From contig JAPKAX010000004.1 of NCBI GenBank assembly GCA_028825025.1, positions 1 to 43,296 of the forward strand: a stretch of 43,296 nt of DNA, read 5' to 3'. The notes beneath the pieces are model-generated. The model was not told the origin of the DNA and made no database searches. It saw only the letters and a list, made by a program, of their open reading frames with translations. This stretch comes from Rhodospirillales bacterium. Its GTDB lineage: Bacteria > Pseudomonadota > Alphaproteobacteria > Rhodospirillales > Casp-alpha2. Shown piece by piece: positions 1,508-6,154 of the stretch. The position numbers and the translations under genes are program-made. Numbering within the stretch: position 1 is the stretch's first letter; every line of letters begins with the position of its first letter.

Positions 1508-2215
1508 TCAAACCAACGCTTCAAGATATTGCGTAGCGAATTTAATATCGGCTTCTAAATTGTTACGCCGTTCCAGAGCTTCTTCATCTACGCCCCATTG
1601 TTTAGTTTGCCAATCATCATCGATTTGCGAGGCTTCAAATGCAAAAGCCCCGTCAATATGGCCCTCCATACAAGCAAGTCCCAAAGCGAGTGATCCGGTT
1701 AATTGAGTAATTTCACCCAATGCGGCGAGTTTAAAGTCATCATAAACATCAATGATTACCGTAAGTTTTTCAACGGTACCATCTGGTTGGTCAATGTGCA
1801 CAATGCCGGATGTGACATTCAGCGGAACCTGCATGGAATGCGCTACCCAATCTAAGATTGGTTGCCATTGTTTGTGTTGCAGAGCGACCAGATCGTTTGG
1901 CCGTTCAGAACGATAACACAACAAGTCGCTCAACCCATATCGAGCAAGCTGCTCAATAACACCAGCCCGAACAGGTGCCACCTTATCAATCGCCGTACAC
2001 ACCAAGCGCATCAGCGGCATGCTTAAGGGCTTAATCTCATCTTCTTGTGCCGCCCACTCTGATGCGACGTCATTCGCCAGCACTTGGAACGGAATAAGCA
2101 AAGCACTGCCTTCTGGTGTTTTTATGGGTTTGGTATCTAAGCGAACGCTATAGCTGTCTCCTTCTAAGACAACATCAACGGTCTCGAAAAATTTTTGTAT
2201 TTTTTTAGTAAGCAT
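1508..2215 (-). CDS. ATP12-family F1-ATPase assembly chaperone
   Basis: This is an ATP12-type chaperone, thought to bind the F1 ATP synthase alpha subunit before the hexamer forms. The 235-residue protein has the family's N-terminal beta-rich part (KKIQKFFETVDV, LDTKPIKTPEG) and its helical C-terminal part (EWAAQEDEIKPLSMPLMRL, LCYRSERP, WQPILDWV). The ATG at 2215 is preceded by AAGGA about 13 bases upstream. An in-frame TTG at 2242 would add nine residues, but it overlaps the end of the upstream AsmA relic and has no good ribosome site. In relatives this gene usually follows an rluC-like gene and a HAD hydrolase gene. Here the HAD gene is still upstream, with the AsmA relic in between. Confidence 0.85.
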   Translation of the reverse strand: MLTKKIQKFFETVDVVLEGDSYSVRLDTKPIKTPEGSALLIPFQVLANDVASEWAAQEDEIKPLSMPLMRLVCTAIDKVAPVRAGVIEQLARYGLSDLLCYRSERPNDLVALQHKQWQPILDWVAHSMQVPLNVTSGIVHIDQPDGTVEKLTVIIDVYDDFKLAALGEITQLTGSLALGLACMEGHIDGAFAFEASQIDDDWQTKQWGVDEEALERRNNLEADIKFATQYLEALV

Positions 2216-2231
2216 ATGCGATTTATGGTCC

Positions 2232-2550
2232 TTAATTCCCAAATAAAATTTTCAAGCCAGAGCCAATTCCCTTTGCAATGCCTTCAATAGCGCTTTCTTC
2301 TATCTTGGGCTTATCCCCAAGGGGCATTTGCAAAGCTGATGCCCTCAACGGCAATTTATGGGGTCAAAGAAATTTCTAGATTCAAATCACCAGTGACAAC
2401 TAAATCACGGCCTGTTGCCTCTTTAGCTTTTTCAGCAATAAGGTCTTTGTATTCATTAAAATCTGTAGACTTTAAAATAGCGATCCCAGCAACAAGAACC
2501 CCTGTAAACAAGACCATGACAACTCAAAAAAATTTAATTCCAGTTTTCAT
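2232..2550 (-). pseudogene. AsmA-family protein, collapsed relic (both ends only)
   Basis: Read from an ATG at 2550 with GGGGAGA upstream, the translation gives an N-terminal membrane segment (VLFTGVLVAGIAIL), then STDFNEYKDLIAEKAKEATG and RDLVVTGDLNLEISLTP, then IAVEGISFANAPWG. This is the hallmark start of AsmA-family envelope proteins. It has an in-frame TGA after codon 8, probably a former Trp, and a TAA after SLTP, probably a former Gln. Right after APWG the frame shifts and the text becomes DKPKIEESAIEGIAKGIGSG and LKILFGN followed by TAA, which resembles the usual AsmA C-terminus. The several hundred residues between are gone. The relic lies 14 bases after the HAD gene and just before the ATP12 gene, so it was probably a member of the same operon. 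Confidence 0.82.
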
Positions 2551-2564
2551 TTCATTCTCCCCAA

Positions 2565-3224
2565 TCAGCTCAGCGCTGAATGTAATTCGTTGAACTCATT
2601 AATAACACATTGGGCACCACTGGCCATTAATTCAGAAGCATCATGATACCCCCAATTCACGCCAATCGCACGCACCCCAGCGTTAAGCGCCATATCAATA
2701 TCAAATGTTGTATCACCAATCATGACAGCGTTCGATTTATCCACGCCAGCTTCATTAAGGGCAGCAATCATCATGTCTGGATGTGGCTTGCCATGCATAA
2801 CCTTATCCGACGTTTGCAAGGTTACAAATTTATCCAGAATCCCGAAGTGCGTAAGCGTTGCCACCAACCCCCGGTATGATTTACCAGTAGCGACACCAAG
2901 CAACCAACCCGCGTCTTCTACAGCACTAATAGCCTCTAAAGTTCCGGGATATAGAGGTTCTTCAAGGCGATCTGTCGCGCGCATTTTTTGCCATTCATCA
3001 GAATATGCCAGTCGGAGACATTCAACCAGTTCCGCATTTGCTTCAGGTGCTAACACGGAAACCCCATCTGACAAAGGCAACCCAACAATGCGCCGAACAG
3101 CATCACGACCAAGATCTGGCAATCCATACTTGGTGAAGGCTACAGACATGCACTGGAAAATGGCGTGTTGCGAATCAACCAATGTACCATCGCAATCAAA
3201 GACAACTAATTTCAATTCACTCAC
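2565..3224 (-). CDS. HAD-IA family hydrolase (phosphoglycolate phosphatase-like)
   Basis: This cytoplasmic HAD-superfamily phosphatase of 219 residues is close to phosphoglycolate phosphatases and other Gph-like enzymes. Motif I is DCDGT with the nucleophile Asp10 and the acid Asp12. Motif II Thr is in VATGK (about 113), motif III Lys in HGKPHP (about 146), and motif IV acids are in GDTTFD (about 171-175). A four-helix cap lies between motifs I and II. The start is GTG at 3224 with only a weak ribosome site, and no better in-frame start exists. The gene normally sits directly after the rluC-like gene. Here 1.9 kb of degraded two-component and transposase sequence separates them. The exact substrate cannot be read from the sequence. 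Confidence 0.85.
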   Translation of the reverse strand: MSELKLVVFDCDGTLVDSQHAIFQCMSVAFTKYGLPDLGRDAVRRIVGLPLSDGVSVLAPEANAELVECLRLAYSDEWQKMRATDRLEEPLYPGTLEAISAVEDAGWLLGVATGKSYRGLVATLTHFGILDKFVTLQTSDKVMHGKPHPDMMIAALNEAGVDKSNAVMIGDTTFDIDMALNAGVRAIGVNWGYHDASELMASGAQCVINEFNELHSALS

Positions 3225-3366
3225 ACGTTTCTCGCATTTGTTACTGAACTCACCCTAACAGGTAAAACCTTATTTACGCGGTAATCGCATCCGCGTCACG
3301 GCAAACCAGTTAAATTAGTGCAAATATTTAAGTATATATTGGAAATATGATCAACCTTCGATTAAT

Positions 3367-4233
3367 TTAAAGGCGAAGTTGAAAATCGTGCCGCATCCTT
3401 TTATCCTAAAACTCTAATGTAGTGTCATGCGCTTCCACAATACTTTTAACAATAGACAGCCCCCGCCCTGAGTTCGGTCTTCGTCGACCAATTCTAATTT
3501 GTGGAACAGCTAAGTTTTCTTTTATTTGGTCTGAAATTCCGGGTCCCATATCCATAATCATAACAGCGCCAGAGGGCTCAATCTCGACAATGATATCGGT
3601 GTTTTTAGGTCTATACTTAATGGCGTTTTAAAATAAATTTCGAAGCGCCATTAAGAATTAGTTCTTCAAGCACGCTCAACAACAACGGCTTTTCAGCGCC
3701 CTGAATCTGATGTTCACAAACAGACAGGATTGCAGACAGAGCAAGCTCAGAAATAACGTCTTGTGTGTTTTTTGATAAATCAACGGCATCATGCTCACCA
3801 ATCTCGGACATATCCCACTTTGTGGCATCTAAAAGCTGTTCGACAGAGCGGCGCATAATATCAACATCATGGCTCAAAAAGGCTGCCATTTTTTGTCACC
3901 CATATTATCAATGGTTGCTTCCAAAAGGCGCTCGGTGTTCTTAAGTCATGCCCAACATTGATGGCAAATATTCGATTATGCTCAACACTTTTCCGTAACG
4001 CAGCTTCAACTTATTTAAATTCTGATGTGTTTGTTAGAAATCTTGCTGTGCTGCCATCATCTAAAATAAACTCTGTGACTTGCAAAACAATTCCACCTTA
4101 GTAACAAATTTCGAATGAACCGCGCGGATTTCGATGTAAATACATCTAGCATGCAATTCATTCTTCTTCTTTTTCAATCGCGTCTAAAACCAATCCTTTT
4201 CAAAATTGCACTTACATGATCTTCGAATAATGT
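3367..4233 (-). pseudogene. PAS-containing sensor histidine kinase, degraded
   Basis: Pieces of one kinase lie in order but in several frames. A PAS-like segment reads GLVLDAIEKEEE, a stop, then YLHRNPRGSFEICY, a stop, then VLQVTEFILDDGSTARFLT. It is followed by AALRKSVEHNR and an H-box FAINVGHDLRTP. After a frameshift come the second dimerisation helix (SHDVDIMRRSVEQLLDATKW) and the start of the ATPase domain (ENAIKY-like N-box broken by a frameshift at about 3640). Then come the G1 box MDMGPGIS, the G2 box RPNSGRGLSIVKSIVEAH, and a tail ending at TAA 3367-3369. Several in-frame stops fall where Trp or Gln would be expected. The N-terminal sensor part is absent, replaced by IS66 sequence. 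It was the natural partner of the response-regulator relic upstream. Confidence 0.8.
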
Positions 4234-4504
4234 GTTAGCGGTGTGTTGATCACACGAGGTTTATTTCTGCAGTATGTTTCCAGAGTAGAAGCTGTTCGAT
4301 CTTGTTAAGTTTTGTGGACACAATCAGTGAGGTAATTATGCCCCAATTTTGAGCTCCGGTATAATGACTGGCGAAGAGTGCACTCTTTTGATTAAGAGCA
4401 ATGGGTCGAATTGTCCGATCGACGGTGTTGTTGTCCATTGCGATCCGACGGGCGTTAAGGTGAGCACTATTAATATCCCAACTCGTGGACACACCCTTAA
4501 CCAT
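4234..4504 (-). pseudogene. IS66-family transposase, C-terminal remnant
   Basis: An 84-codon open stretch (4250-4504) contains ARRIAMDNNTVDRTIRPIAL, then NQKSALFASHYTGAQNWGII and TSLIVSTKLN. This matches the conserved C-terminus of IS66 TnpC, whose usual form is EIDNN..ER.IRPIAL.RKN.LFAGS...A..W..I.SLIETCKLNG. The end KIEQLLLWK resembles the true C-terminal RIDDLLPW motif, so about 20 codons appear deleted between the two. On the plus strand GTTAGCGGTG at 4234 resembles an IS66 inverted-repeat end (usually GTAAGCG). No left end, TnpA or TnpB is visible. The scrap lies between the response-regulator and kinase relics and may have triggered their loss. Confidence 0.8.
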
Positions 4505-5135
4505 TCATTTACTCTGCGGAACTCTATGGTTTTGTGAGTTCGATCCTTCATCAACAGACAGTAAATATCCAACGCCTCTAATCGTATGAACCAAACAGTC
4601 AGCCTCAAATTATTTTAGGCGCTTTCTTAATTGTGAAATACGAACCTCGATGGAGTTTTAAAAAATGTCATCATCAAACCCATAAATTGTATCCTCAATA
4701 ACATCCTTTAGAACAACCCGTCCTGCAAGGCACATCAAATGAAATATTTCCGATATCAATACAGGACCAAGGGTCCCCAGGTGGGTGCAATTAGGCACGA
4801 ATACGGGCAACCAATTACTTCATTTCAAAAGGCTTCAATAAATAATCATTACCACCCGCGTTCAAACCTTTAACACGAGCATCAACACCATCACGAGCAG
4901 TTAAAATAAGCACAGGAGTGCTGTCACCTTGATCACGCCAAGTTTTTAAAAGAGTTAAACCATCCGCATCAGGAAGGCCTAAATCAAGAATAATTACATC
5001 ATACATTACAGTTGAAAATGCGGCATCCCAATTGGCTGCCGTGGCAACGGAATCGACAGTAAACCCAGAACTCGCCTATTCTATTTTAACGAACTCTGCA
5101 AACCGCTCGTGATCTTCTACACGTAACAGTCGCAA
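4505..5135 (-). pseudogene. OmpR-family response regulator, degraded
   Basis: The receiver domain is nearly complete: LRLLRVEDHERFAEFVKIE, an in-frame TAG, then SSGFTVDSVATAANWDAAF and MYDVIILDLGLPDADGL with the phospho-acceptor Asp. PVLILTAR and DYLLKPFEMK follow, the latter with the conserved Lys. The frame then meets TAA, continues LVARIRA to another TAA, and reaches DIGNISFDV. After an internal deletion and frameshift, part of the winged-helix DNA-binding domain appears: GRVVLKDVIEDTIYGFDDDI, stop, NSIEVRISQLRKRLK, stop, then VHTIRGVGYLLSV. The remnant begins 29 bases after rluC. It cannot make a full-length regulator, though the receiver fragment at 4815-5006 is still open. Confidence 0.85.
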
Positions 5136-5164
5136 AAATAATAAGGCCTCGTTATAGTTACGGT

Positions 5165-6154
5165 TTATTCTATTTCAATAATGTAATTGTAGTTCGGTTG
5201 AATCGCAAATCCAAGGAACCGGCAGCTTTCCATAAAGTGTTCCGGCGGCGGAGCCAAAACTTCAAGCATTCCCCCACTAAGATTAGGTAACACAATTGCG
5301 CGGGCGTGAAGATGCATTTGTTTACTACTTGGCAAGCCATCAAGAAAAGCTTCAGAGCCGCCATATTTACCATCACCTACAATAGGCGTTTCTAATCCTT
5401 CAGTGGCATGAACACGAAGTTGATGCGTGCGCCCCGTTACCGGCTGGAAGGCCAACCAACTGACTTTTTGCCCGGCTGTATCTAAAATACGGTATGCAGT
5501 CCGTGCAAACTTTCCTTCTTTTTGATCTACAATCACTTTGTCACCTTTAGCGCCCGGCGCTTTTATCAACGGAAGAGTAATAATTCCCTCTTCAATTTTA
5601 GGCTGTCCAACAACCAATGCCCAATAAAGCTTTTTCGCCTCTTTACTTTGAAAGACGTCTGTATAGAAAGTCGCAGCCTTACGGCTTCTAGCAATCAACA
5701 TAACACCGCTGGTATCTTTGTCTAAACGGTGCACCAAACGCGGGCGTTCACCGTCTTTTGGCTTCAATGCATCCAACAAACCATCGACGTGGCGTGTTGT
5801 GCCGCTGCCGCCTTGAGCTGCTAATCCTGAGGGTTTGTTAATAACAAAAAGATGACTGTCTTGATATATAATCCAGCTTTTGACGAGCTCTATATCTTCT
5901 TCAGTAATTTTCATTTTTTGCTTCGGCTGAGCTTTGCGCGGCGCTCGTTCTTCAATAGGAGGAACTCGAATAATTTGTAATTCTGCAATTCTGCTGCTGG
6001 CTTTAACACGTCCCCCATCAAGCCTTACTTGCCCAGAACGGAATAATTTTTGAAGCTGTACATGACCTAAATCCGGATAGTGGGTTTTAAACCACCGATC
6101 AAGGCGCATGCCGTCTTCGGCGGGTGTGACTTCAATAATTTGAACTTGGCTCAT
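5165..6154 (-). CDS. rluC: RluA-family 23S rRNA pseudouridine synthase (RluC-like)
   Basis: This enzyme converts specific uridines of 23S rRNA to pseudouridine; E. coli RluC acts at 955, 2504 and 2580. The 329 residues begin with an S4 RNA-binding domain (about 16-65: RLDRWFKTHYP, LQKLFRSGQVRLDG). The catalytic domain follows, with INKPSGLAAQGGSG and the signature HRLDKDTSG at 142-150 (catalytic Asp145), then VTGRTHQLRVH and GDGKYGG. The ATG overlaps the crcB stop as ATGA, so the two are probably translationally coupled. It is the last intact gene of the degP-rarA-crcB-rluC unit. Substrate choice between RluC and close paralogues cannot be proved here. Confidence 0.87.
   Translation of the reverse strand: MSQVQIIEVTPAEDGMRLDRWFKTHYPDLGHVQLQKLFRSGQVRLDGGRVKASSRIAELQIIRVPPIEERAPRKAQPKQKMKITEEDIELVKSWIIYQDSHLFVINKPSGLAAQGGSGTTRHVDGLLDALKPKDGERPRLVHRLDKDTSGVMLIARSRKAATFYTDVFQSKEAKKLYWALVVGQPKIEEGIITLPLIKAPGAKGDKVIVDQKEGKFARTAYRILDTAGQKVSWLAFQPVTGRTHQLRVHATEGLETPIVGDGKYGGSEAFLDGLPSSKQMHLHARAIVLPNLSGGMLEVLAPPPEHFMESCRFLGFAIQPNYNYIIEIE

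Follow-up and report, generated by a model that had tools for sequence, protein, structure and literature searches.

The window analysed here, a 43,296-nucleotide stretch of DNA, corresponds to contig C245 in the 3.45-Mb draft assembly (G000; 402 contigs, 96% complete) of a Rhodospirillales bacterium. On its minus strand lies a gene series that reads degP, mgsA, crcB, rluC, a relic, HAD, ATP12 and a carboxyl transferase gene, of which the relic is the only member that is not open. An intact rluC-type pseudouridine synthase gene (5165–6154, minus strand) flanks the relic upstream and an intact HAD-superfamily hydrolase gene (2565–3224, minus strand) flanks it downstream, followed by an intact ATP12 chaperone-like gene (1508–2242, minus strand). 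Between rluC and HAD, the listed open frames include none longer than 90 residues. An earlier note on this DNA had placed a dead two-component system at 3367–5135, limits that proved nearly exact, as the aligned homology runs from 3363 to 5135.

Composition of the rluC–HAD interval

In order to define the relic, frameshift-aware alignments were performed with the intact proteins of a congener, G003. The segment nearest rluC (4538–5135, minus strand) is the relic of an OmpR/PhoB-type response regulator. Codons 1–227 of 230 could be aligned at 72% identity, with five stops, one frameshift and a deletion of 27 codons that falls between the receiver and the DNA-binding domain. The alignment score was 657, compared with a maximum of 41 in 30 single-base shuffles. 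Response_reg was detected by Pfam (E 4.7e-16) in an open piece at 5006–4815, which is open for 63 residues and retains the stretch around the Asp that we take to be the phosphorylated residue. The intact G003 ortholog carries a receiver (E 4.5e-25) followed by a winged-helix Trans_reg_C domain (E 1e-20), the domain order of the OmpR/PhoB family, and the receiver core is still legible in the relic. Unlike known OmpR/PhoB regulators the relic is dead, as no open reading frame spans both domains. The nearest NCBIfam models for the ortholog are PmrA, QseB and TctD, but the best 25 of 94 matches all lie below their cut-offs (PmrA, 228 bits against a cut-off of 330), and we therefore assign no named regulator. 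No close copy of the regulator was found elsewhere in G000, where the other matches are 24–38% identical.

The segment nearest HAD (3363–4236, minus strand) is the relic of a PAS/HisKA/HATPase sensor kinase. Here codons 188–480 of 486 aligned at 57% identity, with six stops and five frameshifts, and codons 1–187 are absent; the score was 705, compared with a maximum of 43 in 30 single-base shuffles. Together the two relics thus hold 11 in-frame stops and six frameshifts, and shuffled sequence scores about 16-fold lower, which bears out the earlier reading of a dead OmpR-type regulator followed by a kinase between rluC and HAD. The motif GHDLRTP is legible in one frame of the kinase relic, and DMGPG and GRGLS in another; presumably these represent the HisKA and HATPase_c boxes (N and G boxes). 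A 51-residue open piece gave a HATPase_c match (E 1.9e-4) of 22.2 bits, under the Pfam cut-off of 26.4, and no Pfam family was found in the open piece at 3889–3676. The intact ortholog has the make-up of a PAS-HisKA-HATPase_c sensor kinase, with HisKA (E 2.6e-7), which holds the phospho-accepting His, HATPase_c (E 1.2e-17) and two PAS stretches at residues 36–135 and 159–262. Its nearest NCBIfam models, PmrB and PhoR, are among the best 25 of 67, all of which fall below their cut-offs. In contrast to such kinases, the relic has lost the first PAS stretch and all but the C-terminal part of the second, and has neither an open frame nor the sensor region encoded by codons 1–187. Other kinase matches in G000 are 25–35% identical, none of them a close copy.

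The place of the first 187 kinase codons is occupied by some 270 bases of a different origin, the degenerate 3′ tail (4234–4510, minus strand) of a tnpC gene for an IS66-family transposase. The C-terminal part of DDE_Tnp_IS66 (PF03050) was recognized in it with an E value of 4e-8, the family search match covering 4349–4510. DNA comparison revealed a second such tail on contig C68 (15571–15934), which matches window positions 4234–4447 with 88% identity over 149 bases and 83% over 71. These two degenerate tails are the only IS66 transposase matches in G000, so that the likeness to the IS66 family is confined to tails at both sites. Homology to the G003 kinase begins at 4236, with codon 188, next to the end of the tail at 4234; since the two abut, the first PAS stretch is absent and the second is cut. 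When the G001 kinase served as the query, the alignment reached 4391 with two inserts and a gap, an extension that we take as a chance run into the IS66 tail. IS66 insertions are marked by terminal inverted repeats and an 8-bp target duplication, and only one end of the fragment remains in the window. The earlier description of the whole interval as a regulator followed by a PAS/HisKA/HATPase kinase thus stands for both relics but not for the stretch taken up by the IS66 tail, and the first PAS stretch is gone.

A further remnant, of an AsmA-family gene, lies between HAD and ATP12 (2302–2565, minus strand) and was identified by frameshift-aware alignment with shuffled controls. The stub aligns over 88 of 710 codons at 67% identity and contains three stops, the remainder of the gene being deleted. 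A relocated AsmA gene was sought in G000 alone, where just a 26% identical paralog was found, on contig C15. The earlier note had overlooked this stub as well as the IS66 tail.

Intact orthologs in relatives and origin of the relic

In two members of the same genus, G001 and G003, rluC and HAD enclose an intact regulator, 230 residues long in each genome, and an intact kinase of 484 and 486 residues, respectively; an AsmA-family gene, some 700 codons long, separates HAD from ATP12. The same arrangement was found in G021, a member of the same family, with an intact pair and AsmA after HAD. A living pair in the rluC–HAD intervals of relatives, for which the earlier note had suggested looking, is therefore present in three genomes. 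The assembly of a third congener, G002, contains no rluC ortholog (only a 37% identical paralog), no HAD ortholog and no ATP12 match, and is thus uninformative on the pair. A four-protein tree grouped the window with G001 and G003 (100/100), beside a clade containing G021. Considering that the intact pair occupies the same place in G001, G003 and G021, the pair is ancestral here and decayed in place. With an intact ortholog at the same position in the congeners and no close copy of either gene in G000, the relic is an ordinary unitary pseudogene pair produced by ordinary reductive decay, and we put the probability that an ancestral regulator–kinase pair became such a pseudogene pair in the window's lineage at roughly 94%.

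From the arrangement in these relatives, the ancestral order would have been rluC–regulator–kinase–HAD–AsmA–ATP12. An IS66 element would then have entered the kinase gene at about codon 188, and most of the element would have been deleted together with the 5′ part of the kinase, leaving the orphaned regulator and the remaining pieces to drift without selection. Either event may have come first, the IS66 insertion or the stops.

The earlier note had favored a different history, in which the pair was an insertion that split a usually tight rluC–HAD–ATP12 order and later died. Such a tight order does exist in some distant alphaproteobacteria: where rluC was found upstream, the two genes lie within 100 bases (≤100) at 10 of 73 named loci and at 5 of 73 loci of the order, two sets that overlap in some genomes. 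However, both usable congeners and G021 have intact orthologs of the pair at this position, with AsmA rather than ATP12 directly after HAD, and the tree places the window with the former and beside the clade that holds the latter. For the window's genus we therefore reject insertion into a tight order, a history that we consider highly improbable; an insertion may have taken place deep in the order, long before the genus arose. Decay in place of an ancestral pair replaces the notion that the pair was inserted recently.

Alternatively, part of the relic could still be in use, for example as a short receiver-like peptide or as promoter DNA for HAD. The open receiver piece at 5006–4815, with its phospho-Asp region kept, would be the natural candidate for a peptide, but stops both precede and follow it. 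Promoter-like sites in 3200–5300 numbered six, against 5.5 expected from shuffles, and hence show no excess that would indicate a promoter serving HAD. As we found nothing in the relic that speaks for a working gene, residual use appears very unlikely. The weakest alternative, that assembly or sequencing errors broke an intact pair, could appeal to the draft state of the genome (402 contigs) but is scarcely credible and was rejected on the number and kind of the lesions, since 11 stops, six frameshifts, a 27-codon deletion, 187 missing codons and the tail of a transposase gene all fall within 1.8 kb while neighboring genes are open across kilobases. The claim that both genes are non-functional thus holds, given the stops, frameshifts, deletions and insertion remnant in the relic on the one hand and open degP, mgsA, crcB, rluC, HAD and ATP12 on the other.

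The preferred reading, decay of an ancestral pair, makes the locus a clean example of the loss of a signalling pathway, with intact congeners at the same spot, in an apparently shrinking alphaproteobacterial genome. At the level of titles and abstracts, a literature search brought no paper on the regulator–kinase pair to our notice.

Age and genomic context of the loss

The earlier note had also proposed that the loss was recent. Divergence was counted at sites where G001 and G003 agree. As judged from these substitutions, the regulator relic differs at 26 of 194 second codon positions compared with 24 of 29 fourfold sites, which suggests that most of its divergence arose under constraint; in relative terms, a recent loss is consistent with the regulator data. 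It is only weakly indicated for the kinase relic, which differs at 44 of 265 second positions, not clearly above intact rluC (44 of 307) or ATP12 (29 of 185), so that dating by the kinase is weak. Since the fourfold sites are near saturation, they yield the relative comparison but not an absolute age.

HATPase_c, a family that also holds non-kinases, is matched 36 times in G000 compared with 86 times in G001 and 99 times in G003, whose genomes measure 4.6 and 5.9 Mb; the lower count may partly reflect the draft state of G000 (402 contigs, 96% complete). Other decayed signalling pieces in G000, judged by eye from the open frames, were seen at three loci (L215, L216 and L217, on contigs C202, C397 and C8), where PAS-, receiver- and kinase-like pieces are broken over several frames. 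Given the reduced number of HATPase_c matches and these other broken pieces, the most plausible view of the loss is as one episode in a broader shedding of signalling genes, and loss of the pair probably fits such shedding in a shrinking genome.

Losses elsewhere in the family and the AsmA gene

To place the relic among its relatives, 48 genomes of the family were searched, of which 38 contain HAD. Several lineages among these 38 have a broken or missing regulator or kinase: that of the window, one genus comprising G006, G018, G057 and G056, and G010, G011, G059 and G061. Ghosts of the regulator were detected in G018 and G057, and in G061 the regulator is broken by a single frameshift. In G059 (L130), the regulator, the next gene (in the place of a DUF2336-like gene) and the kinase are all broken, and HAD and AsmA are open. 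In the genus of G006, G018, G057 and G056, AsmA is also cut to a front stub that reaches codon 65 to 105 of the query. On a four-protein tree of 44 genomes, which includes genomes outside the family, at least seven changes were counted for the regulator and seven for AsmA.

AsmA is missing from six of the nine regulator-dead genomes compared with 1 of 25 genomes with an intact regulator (Fisher p 0.0004 on raw counts). This table used 34 genomes, excluding G007, G022 and G058, whose contigs end before the regulator, and G054, for which only HAD was usable in the tree. G006 was scored as regulator-dead because of an internal deletion of 35 codons, with no stop present; G059 and G061 were scored likewise on one stop and one frameshift in the regulator, respectively, which could be assembly errors. 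AsmA was scored as present in G047 (where the match ends at codon 397 of 737), in G045 and G013 (where the contig ends) and in G041 (one stop in the alignment, a 703-codon open frame). Phylogenetically independent pairs numbered two to three concordant against zero to one opposite, a sample that cannot reach significance; the link between loss of the regulator and loss of AsmA is non-significant after relatedness is taken into account and is only a lead, not a result.

Across the order, both flanks were present at 63 of 101 loci, of which 27 have both genes intact, 15 have AsmA without the regulator, 11 have neither, four have the regulator without AsmA, and six hold remnants of one or both; this tally was made by open-frame length alone, so that G006 and G061 count as regulator-intact in it. 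Outside the family, G106, G094 and G026 keep the regulator and kinase, and AsmA is not there. It is a doubtful proposal that in this family the regulator–kinase pair belongs with HAD and AsmA to a single functional module in which the pair controls AsmA, and with it envelope lipid traffic, so that the fall of one would make the other dispensable and the module would have been taken apart on several independent occasions. Should regulator and AsmA indeed be lost together, this would point to a regulator, as yet unnamed, that acts on an envelope protein of the AsmA family.

The interval itself varies further among these genomes. In the g6 and g7 genomes an extra protein separates the regulator from the kinase; such a protein, of about 380–400 residues, occurs in two genera of the family (L136, L038, L039, L040 and L131). 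The sole one tested, L136 of G060, is DUF2336-like (E 4.6e-8, just under the Pfam cut-off). Several genomes carry an opposite-strand gene in the interval; the single one tested, from G004, encodes an OmpA domain. In G029 (L033), the rluC–HAD interval contains the beginning of a regulator (MRLLLVEDNERLAE) that passes into unrelated sequence, together with a kinase-like match on the opposite strand.
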